DNA of 34,252 nt from a virus, in the IMG/VR virus record IMGVR_UViG_3300029787_000172, positions 1 to 34,252 of that record. The stretch is one strand, 5' to 3'. A program made the translations under genes and the position numbers. Position 1 is the first letter of the stretch, and the number at the start of each line of letters is the position of its first letter. Below the pieces are notes generated by a model. It worked only from the letters and a program-made list of their open reading frames with translations, had not been told where the DNA came from and did not search any database. Shown here piece by piece: positions 2,045 through 30,709 of the stretch.

Positions 2045-2230
2045 ATGAGATTAATTTGGGCGAGATATGAGGATGGAAATGTTGGGATTTGTCTCCAAGG
2101 TGATGGTGAGGATAGGGGTGATTATTCGATGGTCAAAATATCGGCTGACCAAGCTATCCGATTGGCTGAAGACTTTTTGGTCTTAGCGAGAGAATGTAGG
2201 GCGTCAGGTAAATATAATGAAAGCACTTAG
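2045..2230 (+). CDS. Small protein of unknown function (61 residues)
   Basis: A 61-residue protein preceded by a purine-rich ribosome site (GAGGG) 5-9 bases before the ATG. The N-terminal half looks like beta strands (RLIWARYEDGNVGICLQGD) and the C-terminal half like an amphipathic helix (ADQAIRLAEDFLVLARE). No family recognised. It overlaps the next gene by 14 bases, so the two are probably co-translated, and it lies between the two structured non-coding blocks. Confidence 0.6.
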   Translation: MRLIWARYEDGNVGICLQGDGEDRGDYSMVKISADQAIRLAEDFLVLARECRASGKYNEST

Positions 2231-2651
2231 AATCGACCCCGGTGAGCCTGTAGTCATTGAGGAGACTCCGAAGGCGGGAGTCTATAGGCAGAGGCGGTTA
2301 AGTGTATTTGAACGCTGGCAGCGCGAAGGAAAGCTGGAGCGGCGTCATGCCAACGCTGCGAAGATGTTTAACTTTGATTTTGAGACAGCAAACTTTGGAG
2401 ACAACTACGCCATTGTGGATTTGGAAAAGGTGGCGAGGGTGATGGCTTCCGATCACATTGCGGTTAAAACCCTGGAAGCAAGAAAACGCGTCACCGAAGC
2501 AATTAAGGCCGTGGGCGCTATAGGCGGCGGGTATTTGTGGGATTATGTCGGGCTAGAGAAGCCGGTAACTAAAAGTGGTCAGGATGTCCGTGAAGTGTTT
2601 GGGTCGTTAAGAATTGTTTTAGACCAGCTTGCAAATCACTATTCTGTGTAG
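2217..2651 (+). CDS. DUF6456-like protein (alphaproteobacterial phage/chromosome family)
   Basis: A 144-residue protein. The C-terminal part has the pattern of DUF6456: a helix beginning 'KTLEARKRVTEAIKAVG', then 'GYLWDYVGLEKPV' and a final 'VFGSLRIVLDQLANHY', matching the usual 'GLe......K.vLriALdrLa.HY' ending. The N-terminal part has the 'VFERWQREGKLERRHANAA' helix that normally precedes it. DUF6456 proteins are known mainly from Alphaproteobacteria and their phages, often beside regulatory or replication genes, so this is the best host clue here. Role unknown; a DNA-binding or regulatory job, possibly late-gene control given the terminator-protected late operon just downstream, is inference. 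Confidence 0.6.
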   Translation: MKALRIDPGEPVVIEETPKAGVYRQRRLSVFERWQREGKLERRHANAAKMFNFDFETANFGDNYAIVDLEKVARVMASDHIAVKTLEARKRVTEAIKAVGAIGGGYLWDYVGLEKPVTKSGQDVREVFGSLRIVLDQLANHYSV

Positions 2652-2858
2652 AAAAGGTTTGGTGGTTGCAACTGAATGTAGTATAAAAAGATACTCTGAG
2701 AGAATATATGTTGGTATTTTGGCTTAGATGGTGGATCAGTTAGGATAGCGACCTAGCGCCAGTCTAAGCAAGCTGTGAGGACAAGGGCAGTCTGGCTAGT
2801 CAAATTTTGACCGCCTCGCCGTTGCAGTAAGGGGGATCGCAAGCCCCCACGTTTTTTT
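2652..2858 (+). ncRNA. Second structured non-coding block, ending in tandem terminators
   Basis: About 200 bases without a gene. A weak promoter-like TTGGTG (2659-2664), 17 bases, TATAAA (2682-2687) precedes it, though the -35 match is poor. It holds a small hairpin AGTAT/ATACT (2681-2696). A long composite hairpin follows: GCTTAGA/TCTAAGC (2722-2728 with 2763-2769), TGGTG/CGCCA (2729-2733 with 2757-2761) and TTAGG/CCTAG (2740-2744 with 2752-2756). A GTCAAA-T-TTTGAC palindrome lies at 2799-2811. Two consecutive intrinsic terminators close it. The layout resembles a short terminated leader RNA such as lambda 6S from pR', or a put-type antitermination RNA. I do not recognise a named RNA family. 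Confidence 0.45.
2831..2858 (+). terminator. Intrinsic terminator 1 (upstream of the late genes)
   Basis: GGGGG (2831-2835) pairs with CCCCC (2844-2848) around an 8-base loop, followed after three bases by seven T (2852-2858). It is the first of two tandem terminators directly before the late operon. Confidence 0.75.
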
Positions 2859-2878
2859 GCCCCTCTGGGGCTTTTTTT
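2859..2878 (+). terminator. Intrinsic terminator 2 (upstream of the late genes)
   Basis: GCCCC (2859-2863), loop TCT, GGGGC (2867-2871) and seven T (2872-2878) form a textbook rho-independent terminator. The first late gene starts 11 bases later with no room for a promoter, so late transcription must read through both terminators. Confidence 0.85.
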
Positions 2879-2889
2879 ATGGGAAAATC

Positions 2890-4188: not shown

Positions 4189-5337
4189 ATGGAAGTAATC
4201 GAAAAAGAGGTTACGGGGTTGATCCCCTATGCCTCTAACTCACGGACACACGATGACGCTCAAGTGGCTCAGATTGCCGCGTCGATAAAGGAGTTCGGGT
4301 TCAATAACCCTGTGCTTATAGACGAAACGGGTGGCATCATAGCGGGACATGGACGTGTCCTAGCGGCAAGGAAACTCAGCCTGGATAAAGTGCCAACCAT
4401 TGAATTGGCGCACCTGACTCCAAACCAACGCAAAGCATATGTCATTGCAGACAATAAGCTGGCGTTAAATGCGGGTTGGGATATGGAGATGCTCTCCCTA
4501 GAGATGGGGGACTTAGACAAGGAAGGGTTTGACCTTTCGCTGATTGGTTTTGATGACAACGAACTGGCGGAAATACTTGCAGACAAGAATGAAGGCTTAA
4601 CCGACCCCGACGAGGTGCCTGACCTACCTGACGAGCCTGTTACAAAAGAGGGTGACGTTTGGTTGTTGGGAAAGCACAGATTGATGTGCGGCGATAGCAC
4701 TAGCATCGATGCGGTTGATAAGCTGATGGATGGGGTAAAAATTGATTTAGTCCACACTGATCCTCCGTATGGCATGAACGCAGTTTCTAAGAGCGGCGTT
4801 TTATCTAAAACATACAAAGCCGACATAATCGGTGATAACAACGCAGACGTTGCAAAGGATGCGTTCAATCTGATTTACGGGATGTTTCCAGACGCCAAAC
4901 ATATTTGGTGGGGCGCAAATTATTATAGCTCCGTTCTTCCTGATAGTGAGTGTTGGATGGTGTGGGACAAGAACAACGGCAAAAGCGATCAGACAGATTG
5001 CGAATTGGCGTGGTCAAACTTTCGGAGCGTTGTGCGCCAGTTTACGCAAGCGTCAGAAAAAACAAACCGTGTCCACCCGACGCAGAAGCCCGTCAGCCTC
5101 ATGGAATGGATTATTAAGCGGTTCAAATTGTCGGCTAAGTCTATTGCGGATTTCTTTGGCGGGTCAGGGTCAACACTTATTGCAGCGGAGATACATAATA
5201 TTCCCGCTTTTGTTATGGAATACGACCCCGCGTTTTGTGATGTTATTATAAAACGCTGGCAAAACTTTACGGGCGAAAAGGCAAAGCTGGAGGATAGCGG
5301 TCAATACTTCCCGTCTATAAAAGCTGATGCCGCGTAG
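4189..5337 (+). CDS. ParB-like nuclease-domain/DNA N-methyltransferase fusion
   Basis: A 382-residue two-domain protein. Residues 1-95 form a ParB/Srx-type domain with the G48-G-I-I-A-G-H-G-R56 signature. Residues 155-365 form an N6-adenine/N4-cytosine methyltransferase with motif IV TDPPYG (190-195), 'HPTQKP' (296-301) and S-adenosylmethionine motif I DFFGGSGST (321-329). Motif IV before motif I marks the beta class, to which CcrM of Alphaproteobacteria belongs. Such fusions are common in phages next to terminase genes. Likely role: methylating phage DNA, either against host restriction or to mark DNA for packaging. Preceded by a GGAG ribosome site; overlaps the small terminase gene by 11 bases. 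Confidence 0.9.
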   Translation: MEVIEKEVTGLIPYASNSRTHDDAQVAQIAASIKEFGFNNPVLIDETGGIIAGHGRVLAARKLSLDKVPTIELAHLTPNQRKAYVIADNKLALNAGWDMEMLSLEMGDLDKEGFDLSLIGFDDNELAEILADKNEGLTDPDEVPDLPDEPVTKEGDVWLLGKHRLMCGDSTSIDAVDKLMDGVKIDLVHTDPPYGMNAVSKSGVLSKTYKADIIGDNNADVAKDAFNLIYGMFPDAKHIWWGANYYSSVLPDSECWMVWDKNNGKSDQTDCELAWSNFRSVVRQFTQASEKTNRVHPTQKPVSLMEWIIKRFKLSAKSIADFFGGSGSTLIAAEIHNIPAFVMEYDPAFCDVIIKRWQNFTGEKAKLEDSGQYFPSIKADAA

Positions 5338-5677
5338 TAAGGGCCAGCCAGCGTTTAAGCCAACGGACGAAGAGCGGAAGCTGGTTGAACAAATGTCGGC
5401 GGTGGGCATACCGCAGTCCAATATAGCAATGGTTCTCCGCGATGGCATTGATGACAAAACGCTGAGAAAACATTTCCGCAAGGAACTAGACACAGCGGCG
5501 ACAAAGGCCAATGCAAAAATAGGCGGCACGTTATTCAACAAGGCCGTCAACGGAGACACGTCAGCGGCAATATTCTGGGCCAAGACACGGATGGGCTGGA
5601 AAGAGACAAGCGTTCAAGAACACGCTGGCGGCGTTGCGGTTAGCATCCAGTTAAATGCAACTAAATCTGGAAATTGA
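5327..5677 (+). CDS. terS: Terminase small subunit
   Basis: A 116-residue protein directly before the large terminase. It starts with an HTH-like region (EERKLVEQMSAVGIPQSNIA ... DDKTLRKHF) suited to DNA binding. It then has the hallmark segment NGDTSAAIFWAKTRMGWKE (about 80-98), matching the 'N.tAaiFWLKtR.gW.e' pattern of small terminase subunits. It would recognise the packaging site and load the large subunit. The start lies inside the methyltransferase gene and the end overlaps terL by 23 bases, so all three are one translational unit. Confidence 0.85.
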   Translation: MPRSKGQPAFKPTDEERKLVEQMSAVGIPQSNIAMVLRDGIDDKTLRKHFRKELDTAATKANAKIGGTLFNKAVNGDTSAAIFWAKTRMGWKETSVQEHAGGVAVSIQLNATKSGN

Positions 5678-6962
5678 TTTCCCAGAGGTATTCGCGCCTC
5701 TGATAAAGCCAGCCAGATACAAAGGCGCATGGGGTGGCCGTGGGTCAGGCAAGTCTTGGTTCTTTGGCCTGATGACGGTTATAGCGTTGTTAGAGGGCAA
5801 GCGGGTCGTTTGTCTCAGGGAAGTGCAGAACTCCATCAAGGACTCTGTTAAACAGCTTATTGAAGACGTTATCTTGCGTCACGGGCTGGAAAGTCTGTTT
5901 GATATTACGGAGCAAGAGATACGGGGGCCGCAAGGGTCAACGTGTTTGTTCCGTGGCCTACATAATTCAACGTCAGCGTCGATCAAATCGCTAGAGGGTG
6001 TGCAGATAGCGTGGCTTGAAGAAGCCCAGACGATTAGCCAGCGCAGCCTTGATTTGCTAACCCCGACGATACGGGCAGACGGTTCGGAGTTGTGGTTTAG
6101 CTGGAATCCTGTGTCCAGGCTGGACCCGATTGACAAGCTGTTGAGACGGTACACGCCAGAGGATTCGATTATTGTTGAGTCTAATTGGCGGGATAATAAG
6201 TGGTTCCCTGCTTCTCTGAAGGCAGACATGGACCGGGACCGTTCTCAAGACCCAGAGAAGGCGGCTCACATTTGGGATGGTGAGTATGCGTCTGTGACGG
6301 GTGGGGCGTACTATGCCGCGCTCATATCCGATGCAAGAAAAGCGGGTCGGATTGGAAAAGTTGAGTATGACCCTGACTTGCCTGTCAGTAGTGCCTGGGA
6401 CTTGGGCATTGGCGATAGTCTTGCCATTATCTTATGGCAGCAAGTAGGGAACGAGATTAGAGTTATTAATCACTACGAGAACCACAGCCAGCCTTTGCCG
6501 CATTATGTGAAGTGGCTGAAGTCGCTGGACTACAAGGTAGAGCTTGATTGGTTGCCTCATGACGCAAGGGTTAGAGAGCTAGGCACGGGTTTAACTAGGG
6601 TCGAGGTTCTCAGACGAGAAAAGCGCAACGTGAAAATTGTGCCAGCCCACAAGGTAGACGATGGGATAAACGCTGTTCGGGAGCTTCTCCCGATAATGCA
6701 CTTCGACGCTGATAAGTGTGAGTATCTCTTGGAGTGCTTGATGCAGTATCGGGAAGATTACGACGAGCGGCTGTTGACTTTAAAAAGTCGGCCCCTGCAC
6801 GATTGGACAAGCCACTCAAGTGATGCGATGCGGTATATGTGCATGGCCTACCGGGAAGACAGACCGGAGCCTATAAGGAAGGTTCCAGAGTTTATTGAGC
6901 GTGAGCCATTAACAATCAATGAGTTGTTTGAAACCATTGATGAAAAAAGGACAGAGTTTTGA
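5655..6962 (+). CDS. terL: Terminase large subunit
   Basis: A 435-residue packaging motor of the PBSX/Terminase_3-6 type. The ATPase has Walker A GGRGSGKS (27-34) and Walker B IAWLEEA with the catalytic Glu (118-124). The RNase H-like nuclease has D249 in 'AWDLGIGD', 'LPHDAR' around 304, and 'HDWTSHSSDAMRY' (D390). The length is normal for the family. It translocates DNA through the portal and cuts concatemers. A circularly closing contig fits headful packaging, though that is not shown by this gene alone. The stop TGA overlaps the TTG start of the next gene. Confidence 0.95.
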   Translation: MQLNLEIDFPEVFAPLIKPARYKGAWGGRGSGKSWFFGLMTVIALLEGKRVVCLREVQNSIKDSVKQLIEDVILRHGLESLFDITEQEIRGPQGSTCLFRGLHNSTSASIKSLEGVQIAWLEEAQTISQRSLDLLTPTIRADGSELWFSWNPVSRLDPIDKLLRRYTPEDSIIVESNWRDNKWFPASLKADMDRDRSQDPEKAAHIWDGEYASVTGGAYYAALISDARKAGRIGKVEYDPDLPVSSAWDLGIGDSLAIILWQQVGNEIRVINHYENHSQPLPHYVKWLKSLDYKVELDWLPHDARVRELGTGLTRVEVLRREKRNVKIVPAHKVDDGINAVRELLPIMHFDADKCEYLLECLMQYREDYDERLLTLKSRPLHDWTSHSSDAMRYMCMAYREDRPEPIRKVPEFIEREPLTINELFETIDEKRTEF

Positions 6963-12734: not shown

Positions 12735-12765
12735 GGGGGGGGGCTTCGGCTCCCCCTTTTCTTTT
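12735..12765 (+). terminator. Strong intrinsic terminator after the capsid/decoration genes
   Basis: A G-run (12,735-12,743), GC-TTCG-GC tetraloop and CCCCC (12,752-12,756) form a stem of about 8 bp, followed by TTTTCTTTT. The UUCG loop and T-run make this a clear rho-independent terminator. It would leave capsid and decoration transcripts more abundant than downstream genes. Confidence 0.85.
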
Positions 12766-29513: not shown

Positions 29514-30709
29514 TAGTGGACACTCCGATGTTGCAGTCTGTAATCTTTGGTTATTACGCCTAGCTTTGGGTCGCCGCGCAAATGCGCGTTAATCCATACC
29601 CGCCGACCATCTTGATATTTTCGCCAATGGCCGCGCACTGAGTGTTGCCGCCGCGAACTTTCATTCATGGAGCTAAACCCTTTAGGAAGGATTGTGATCC
29701 CCTGCCATTTTGGAAGATCAATGGCTAGTTCTATGTGAGCATTACCTTTGCGGAACTTGCCAAATTTGTATCGGCGGCTTGCGCTTTCGCGGGGCGTTTT
29801 AATAATCCAATCGAAATTCAGCAACCCCATCACGGTAATAAGAAACCGTGAATCACCCCTGGTCATCTCTGTGCCAATATTTTGCATATTTTGAGCAGCG
29901 TTTCTTGACCATTCTTGGTTTGCAGTATCCACAAAAAAGTCGATGCCTGGGCCTTGGACAAGCCTAGTGTGGGTTACAAGGTCATACAGTTCGGCGTCTT
30001 TGTCGCGGTCTAACACGCTATGCGTAGCGCCGTGCCGTTCTGACCAGATGTCGCTGATGGTATTGCGCTGCACCCACCACGCGCCCAGACATTCGGAAGC
30101 CACTTGTATTTCGCTGTTTCGGAAATCGGCTACCATTTCATCTGTCGCGGGGCTGTAAATACCCTCTAGAAATTTCCGATAATGTTCCATTGTGTAGCCG
30201 CTGCCGTCTTGCATTGCGGCAAATTCAATGGATAGCGGACCCACAACGATGTTTTCGTTATCATTGAAATCTATTATTGGCGTGGCAAGATATGCGTCTT
30301 GTTCGTATCCCGTATAATGTCCGTTGTTGAGAAGATACCCGACTCGCGGCGTTAGATTGTCGCGGTCAATATTTGTTTCAAGTCCAAACTCATTGCTCAC
30401 GCGCTCAAGCGTGTCTTGGCGAATTAACTCGTTCCACTCAATCCATACGTTCTCGTGGGGCAATCGGAACAACTTAAACTGATCTATCAAGTCTTGCGCC
30501 GAAGACCGCATGGATGTCTCCATAGCGAAATCCACAAACCTATCGTCTAATACAAATCGCGTGGCTTGTCGGACATCTTGATACAGGCTGGAAGCCCGAC
30601 GTTTAAGACGTGGCGTTCTCAACAAATCGGGGCTTCTAACCACAAGCCCTTTTTTGGGATTGGCGAGGGCCGCAATAGTTTCGTCGGCCAGTGTGAATGT
30701 GTCAGTCAT
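29513..30709 (-). CDS. Large protein of unknown function at the end of the leftward operon
   Basis: A 398-residue protein from ATG 30,709 (a GTG at 30,712 is adjacent; both follow GGGGGGAG). It has 'LADETIAALANPKKGLVVRS' at the start, a middle of mixed helices and strands, and a basic C-terminus 'RQHSVRGHWRKYQDGRRVWI' then 'NAHLRGDPKLGVITKDYRL'. The 'H.vRGHwR......vWI..H.rGd' ending recurs in phage and plasmid proteins without known function and could be a nucleic-acid-binding motif. Size and conservation mark it as a main leftward product rather than filler. No enzyme motif recognised. Confidence 0.6.
   Translation of the reverse strand: MTDTFTLADETIAALANPKKGLVVRSPDLLRTPRLKRRASSLYQDVRQATRFVLDDRFVDFAMETSMRSSAQDLIDQFKLFRLPHENVWIEWNELIRQDTLERVSNEFGLETNIDRDNLTPRVGYLLNNGHYTGYEQDAYLATPIIDFNDNENIVVGPLSIEFAAMQDGSGYTMEHYRKFLEGIYSPATDEMVADFRNSEIQVASECLGAWWVQRNTISDIWSERHGATHSVLDRDKDAELYDLVTHTRLVQGPGIDFFVDTANQEWSRNAAQNMQNIGTEMTRGDSRFLITVMGLLNFDWIIKTPRESASRRYKFGKFRKGNAHIELAIDLPKWQGITILPKGFSSMNESSRRQHSVRGHWRKYQDGRRVWINAHLRGDPKLGVITKDYRLQHRSVH

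Follow-up and report, generated by a model that had tools for sequence, protein, structure and literature searches.

The put RNA of phage HK022 brings about protein-free antitermination through the beta' zinc-binding domain, and a 2025 eLife paper reportedly describes antitermination in the Bartonella GTA. Homologues of the GTA regulator GafA are annotated as DUF6456 (PMC9638019), and Caulobacter GafZ, a homologue of the C-terminal half of GafA, is an antiterminator with experimental support: it lets polymerase pass terminators and has a binding element in the form of a near-perfect palindrome between −35 and −10 (PMC11150451). As a GafY partner is present in 494 of 759 GafZ homologues (PMC9632790) and thus is not universal, we did not treat it as defining the GafZ family. 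In addition to a spacer site, the phage protein 21Q requires a −10-like sequence within the first transcribed bases (PMC6606751), AlpA needs CACGAT at −1 to +5 (PMC9371919), and HK022 put consists of about 70 nt with two stem-loops (PMC9378689).

The sequence studied here is the complete IMG/VR record IMGVR_UViG_3300029787_000172 of an uncultured virus, a stretch of 34,252 bases referred to below as the window. To our knowledge, few late-gene switches have been described for alphaproteobacterial and marine phages, whose DUF6456 genes carry no functional annotation. We propose that the 238 bases between the DUF6456 gene of the window and its first late gene are probably a late-gene control region, in which a GafZ-family protein would operate a promoter-loaded antitermination switch of the Q type. 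In the literature covered, mainly open-access papers, no description of DUF6456 proteins as phage late antiterminators was found, and priority is uncertain.

By family searches, the capsid protein encoded in the window is of podovirus type, and neither DNA nor protein matches were found in annotated phages. The early operon (+ strand) comprises a Cro/YdaS-like regulator, a NinG-like gene, a replication-initiation-like gene, a 61-aa ORF and the DUF6456 gene; it is followed by the leader stretch, the first late gene, the ParB/methyltransferase gene, the small and large terminase subunits, and the portal and capsid genes (Table 1). In the lineage of the compared loci L025 and L026, the first late gene retains about 40% identity, as against 82% for the DUF6456 gene 5' of it, and thus diverges much faster. 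The replication gene and the 61-aa ORF flank another structured RNA of about 290 bases (1720–2010, +; z −3.2). Compensatory changes are seen at 21 of its pairs when eight relatives are compared, and its 5' part resembles the Betaproteobacteria-1 RNA (RF02932) with 38.8 bits, below the gathering cut-off of 49.4. This RNA was rejected as part of the DUF6456 system, being absent from ten other DUF6456 loci.

Table 1. Features of the proposed late-gene control region, its surroundings and related loci
Feature	Position	Strand	Details
GafZ-homologous DUF6456 protein of 144 aa in the Q position, proposed to act as late antiterminator	2217–2651	+	PF20057
Predicted late promoter	2659–2687	+	−35 TTGGTG 2659–2664, 17-base spacer, −10 TATAAA 2682–2687; conserved block
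Palindrome GTTGCAAC in promoter spacer, putative antiterminator binding element (QBE/ZBE analogue)	2665–2672	+	assigned by position
TACTCT, −10-like (nAnnnT), proposed sigma-dependent pause element	2692–2697	+	about −2 to +4
Leader RNA motif P1, composite hairpin 2722–2769 (48 bases)	2720–2771	+	homologues in L302, L375, L376, L378
Leader RNA second stem P2	2772–2828	+	also in L302 and L378, there with G-U/A-U exchanges
Intrinsic terminator 1	2831–2857	+	stem GGGGG-ATCGCAAG-CCCCC 2831–2848, then ACG, T7 2851–2857
Intrinsic terminator 2, proposed tR' analogue	2859–2878	+	stem GCCCC-TCT-GGGGC 2859–2871, T7 2872–2878; −9.1 kcal/mol
First late gene, 423 aa	2890–4161	+	no family match
ParB-like/DNA methyltransferase gene	4189–5337	+	PHROG 498, 2.5e-113
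Terminase small and large subunits; packaging genes begin	5327–6962	+	PHROGs 309 and 3717
Strong terminator inside late operon, 3' of capsid gene	12737–12756	+	GGGGGGGCTTCGGCTCCCCC then TTTTCTTTTG
P1 homologues	L302:2293–2427, L375:3737–3787, L376:5125–5176 (−), L378:1594–1645		outer stem varies, pairing kept

By sequence, the window protein is a member of the DUF6456/GafZ family. The Pfam model PF20057 matches it with 32.7 bits (curated cut-off 26.3), hhalign aligns its lineage with the GafZ profile at a probability of 96.2 (E 2.6e-9), and a 10-member phage/prophage profile reaches 99.5 against GafZ (E 2.4e-22). The same model matches the control genome of Caulobacter vibrioides and four of the four Caulobacter genomes tried, and a GafY-like gene adjoins the PF20057 gene in both Caulobacter loci inspected (L125, L126). 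Beside the window gene no GafY-like (DnaA-like) activator was found, the neighbour at 2045–2230 having no family match; since GafZ works with GafY, this counts against our proposal. A sequence-only reading of the locus had seen no evident Q homologue, and indeed the 2217 protein has no antiterminator match in Pfam, PHROGs or NCBIfam; judged from these searches, it is not a member of a Q family, and no Q or other antiterminator family was found among the window proteins scanned. Three further lines were set aside: (i) a structural argument, as the AlphaFold model with seven relatives was weak (pLDDT 66) and Foldseek against the PDB returned nothing below E 0.5, both counting against the proposal, and as no solved structure was matched convincingly by sequence; (ii) a match on a Rhodovastum plasmid, which is not DUF6456; and (iii) assignment of the published GafZ site at the Caulobacter gtaT promoter, where many pattern matches were obtained and none was assignable to the promoter, so that the Caulobacter promoter layout is taken from PMC11150451 alone.

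Among the viral-contig relatives, two blocks are kept in the interval that runs from the DUF6456 stop codon to the late ATG, namely the promoter block and the last terminator. The former reads TTGGTG-17-TATAAA in the window, TTGAAG-18-TACAAA in L025 and TTGCGA-17-TACAAA in L028, and it occurs once in the window even when three mismatches are allowed; the predicted transcription start near 2694 would give a leader of about 160–185 bases to the terminators. The sequence between the two blocks is replaced among relatives. L023 and L027 have genes only about 115 bases apart and leaders of about 60–65 bases. Instead of this short middle part, the window and L024 contain a piece of about 140 bases, which brings with it the hairpin and terminator 1. 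That promoter block and terminator persist while the intervening sequence changes is counted in favour of antitermination. Against the Q-type reading stand the weak −35 of the window lineage (TTGGTG, 4/6) and the preference of the automatic cassette scan for other hexamers in the window family, for which reasons the predicted promoter rests on conservation and position. In L025 (2348–2520), L026 and L005, a possible ORF of 57–58 aa with two CxxC motifs, Zn-ribbon-like, lies directly 3' of the DUF6456 gene. The promoter block of these loci can also be read as the 3' end of this ORF, a further point against; as the block is nevertheless kept in the window, L023 and L028, where the frame is interrupted, what is conserved would seem to be the DNA itself. 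The upstream regulator gene reaches into the late promoter in L267, L269, L186 and L376, where its 3' end or stop codon overlaps the −35 hexamer.

Within the promoter spacer, the relatives share the palindrome GTTGCAAC, in L028 in the version GTTGCGAG, and other DUF6456 loci carry 8-base palindromes at the same place (AGCGCGCT in L186, ATGGCCAT in L282 and ATCCGGAT in L259–L269). The excess of such palindromes in spacers chosen by the script is modest (4/15 versus 5% in shuffles), which counts against the Q-type reading, and this script did not pick GTTGCAAC for the window. As to the putative pause element, nAnnnT occurs at offset 10 or 11 (position −1), counted from where the −10 begins, in 8 of 11 lineages, a count that none of 20000 shuffles reached (maximum 7), with lineages picked for a readable promoter and not for the pause, and with the shuffles likewise scored by their best offset pair.

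Two back-to-back intrinsic terminators had been reported from the sequence, and both are confirmed, with stems at 2831–2848 and 2859–2871. A strict scan of the + strand of the whole window yields four strong terminators, i.e. the tandem pair, 12737–12756 and 30630–30649, where dinucleotide shuffles predict 0.65 per strand; a tandem pair within 15 bases arose in 0 of 40 shuffles. Generic terminator and promoter counts in the window are near chance; the terminator argument rests on strength, tandem placement and conservation. The hairpin of terminator 1 doubles as the third stem of the leader RNA and is present in L378 without a proper T run. The reported distance of 11 bases between the second U-tract and the first late ORF was likewise verified by direct reading (ATG at 2890), and every relative with the DUF6456–late gene pair has retained a terminator immediately 5' of where the late gene starts. 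Because the tandem terminators also face early transcription arriving through 2217–2651, they might serve to trim early transcripts, the DUF6456 protein being an activator of the 2659 promoter in the manner of GafY or GafA and read-through being constitutive or partial. GafA activates promoters via the omega subunit (PMC9638019), and a weak −35 would suit an activated promoter; however, the protein is a homologue of the antiterminator half, GafZ, and not of GafY, and a terminator kept between promoter and late genes in all family lineages would be wasteful unless it could be overridden, so that we consider this explanation decidedly unlikely.

The 48-base composite hairpin noted earlier is real (2722–2769). 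It has a folding energy of −18.8 kcal/mol (z −2.5), a comparison of five phages shows both partners changed in 8 of its 17 pairs (0/500 shuffles), and the five sequences pair 92.9% of the cells in the window hairpin, far above slid alignments. The wider description of the region as structured holds for this hairpin and fails for the total energy of the 238 bases, which are no more stable than shuffles (z 0.02). A pattern scan found the core of P1 in four further contigs of unrelated phages, and this core, GGATAGCGACC, is invariant among the homologues in L302, L375, L376 and L378; P2 and the hairpin of terminator 1 accompany it in L302 and L378. In L302/L377 and L375, P1 follows the terminator that comes after a capsid-like gene, and in L376 and L378 it lies upstream of terminase genes (the terminase family match being weak for L378). 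A P1 model search of 647 kb of compared loci returned nothing convincing beyond its own source sequences, the same search of 357 alphaproteobacterial genomes gave no match, and Rfam contains no match to the leader RNA motif. On the strength of covariation and recurrence, P1 is a genuine conserved RNA motif of phage late operons.

The RNA hairpin had been named, together with the DUF6456-like protein, as a candidate for the antiterminating factor. Under that explanation, P1–P2 (2720–2828) would fold on the nascent transcript and bind polymerase without a protein, as put does, and a put-like role is possible: the RNA begins about 28 bases past the predicted start, shares two-stem geometry with HK022 put, and has its covarying motif in unrelated phages, in leaders or gaps of their late operons (L376, L378, L302/L375). 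However, its likeness to put is one of geometry, it finishes in its own terminator-like hairpin, and the model search found no P1 in L023, L025, L026, L027, L028–L030 and L005, which retain promoter and terminator. Since most close relatives manage without it, the hairpin is, from this comparison, an add-on, which excludes it as the family's core mechanism, and we regard the leader RNA as quite unlikely to be the antiterminator itself. It is unlikely as well that unrelated tailed phages use P1–P2 in their late operons as a processive antitermination RNA of a new class, stacked in the window with a phage GafZ-type protein. The DUF6456 protein is much the stronger of the two candidates, as a GafZ homologue whose relatives keep the promoter–terminator cassette in other phages.

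The leader insert, which has its own terminator hairpin and occurs at intergenic places in other phages, could also be an independent small RNA gene running from the 2659 promoter to the terminators at 2831–2878, with the late genes served by an unrecognised promoter. A strong late promoter between 2879 and 4189 had been named as an observation that would speak against antitermination; a scan of the + strand in this interval found no sigma-70-like site, and only 11 bases separate U-tract and ATG. Moreover, relatives with leaders of about 60 bases lack such an RNA but have retained the terminator, and a small RNA gene is highly improbable. The reading of the leader as an RNA switch was set aside because, by eye, the short leaders of relatives contain no sequence able to pair with the terminator stem. 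L376 has the RNA motif and, in the Q position, a gene whose stop codon coincides with a promoter-like site; the encoded protein is not DUF6456. In L287 (IMGVR_UViG_3300030372_001094), which was not used as evidence, the promoter and leader of the window lineage (98% identical, from exactly base 2652) are joined to the gene of a different phage group, possibly through chimeric assembly and possibly through recombination at shared RNA.

Comparison with DUF6456 loci elsewhere is where the proposal of a DUF6456-dependent antitermination switch gains breadth. PF20057 matches were obtained in 71 of 385 alphaproteobacterial genomes, the strong ones GafA/GafZ-like and the weak ones often in prophages, where DUF6456 genes frequently stand immediately upstream of terminase genes (confirmed for L175, L185, L186, L188, L260, L263, L274 and L282). 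In 15 of 40 cluster representatives (clusters at 60% identity; pattern TTGnnn-16/18-nAnnnn), a promoter lies near the DUF6456 stop codon, compared with 7.0 ± 1.9 and at most 12 in shuffles, and one cluster repeats TTGACA-AATCCGGATCGATCTG-ATACAAG across many genomes. A promoter–terminator cassette was scored in 12 of 26 DUF6456 loci against 0.57 expected, a count that includes seven sequences of the window family; for several of these, and for L175, the hexamers picked by the script differ from those argued for here. L032, with 55% identity and a different terminase, carries TTGACA-18-TAGAAA and a terminator directly behind its DUF6456 gene; it belongs to the independent lineages with a clear cassette, together with L185/L187, L186 and L188 (scored by script) and L175, L250, L263, L274 and L282 (recognised by eye). 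Several prophage loci have promoter, pause element and terminator 3' of the gene as in the window. Many others show no recognisable terminator, which counts against the Q-type reading.

The sequence elements, their conservation, the DUF6456–GafZ homology and the recurrent order of gene, promoter, (terminator) and terminase in other prophages are direct observations. Building on these, we propose the following hypothetical sequence of events, in which (i) host RNA polymerase would start at the sigma-70-type promoter 2659–2687, near 2694; (ii) the polymerase would pause just past initiation at the −10-like sequence 2692–2697; (iii) by default, transcription would stop at both terminators and yield a short leader RNA of about 160–185 bases; (iv) late in infection, the DUF6456 protein from 2217–2651 would bind the palindrome 2665–2672 between −35 and −10 and load onto the paused polymerase, making it resistant to the tandem terminators and to the later one at 12737; (v) read-through would then allow transcription of the packaging and structural genes. 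According to this scenario, the system is likely to work like Q. The antitermination control suggested by the sequence-only reading is thus well supported by comparison; that reading had overlooked the promoter at 2659–2687, which makes its pR'–tR' analogy concrete.

If this proposal is right, DUF6456 would be the Q of alphaproteobacterial and marine phages, readable from one gene and a signature of promoter, palindrome, pause and terminator. The GTA regulator GafZ would gain a phage counterpart, consistent with GTA control as a domesticated phage late switch, and the logic would be that of lambda Q, built from unrelated parts. The covarying leader RNA, which belongs to no Rfam family, adds another element that can be tested on its own.

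Among known systems, HK022 put resembles the leader in having a two-stem RNA near the transcript 5' end, downstream of the promoter (P1, P2 and their covariation), and by analogy such a leader RNA could in principle act on polymerase. It differs in that the phage RNA lies in a late and not an early operon, has no Rfam match and is missing from most relatives. AlpA of Pseudomonas aeruginosa is comparable in its spacer element, to which the proposed one here would correspond, in a −10-like sequence in the start region (CACGAT for AlpA) and in a downstream intrinsic terminator; however, it is a different protein and controls lysis genes of a host locus. With the Q proteins of lambda, 21 and 82 (pR'–tR'), the locus shares the position of the gene directly upstream of the promoter, a proposed spacer element, a −10-like sequence in the start region, a terminated leader before the late genes and a NinG-like gene in the same early operon. 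In contrast to these systems, the phage protein is unrelated in sequence to any Q family, there are two terminators and an additional structured RNA, and the proposed site is palindromic, whereas that of 21Q is a direct repeat. The likeness to GafZ and the C-terminal half of GafA (PF20057) in alphaproteobacterial GTAs extends to the protein itself, which is homologous, to a palindrome between −35 and −10, and to the terminator(s) to be passed before the structural genes. Unlike GafZ, the phage protein stands alone, with 144 aa and no GafY partner seen, and is encoded beside its proposed target promoter; its terminators precede the first late gene, whereas the Caulobacter terminator follows the first gene, gtaT.
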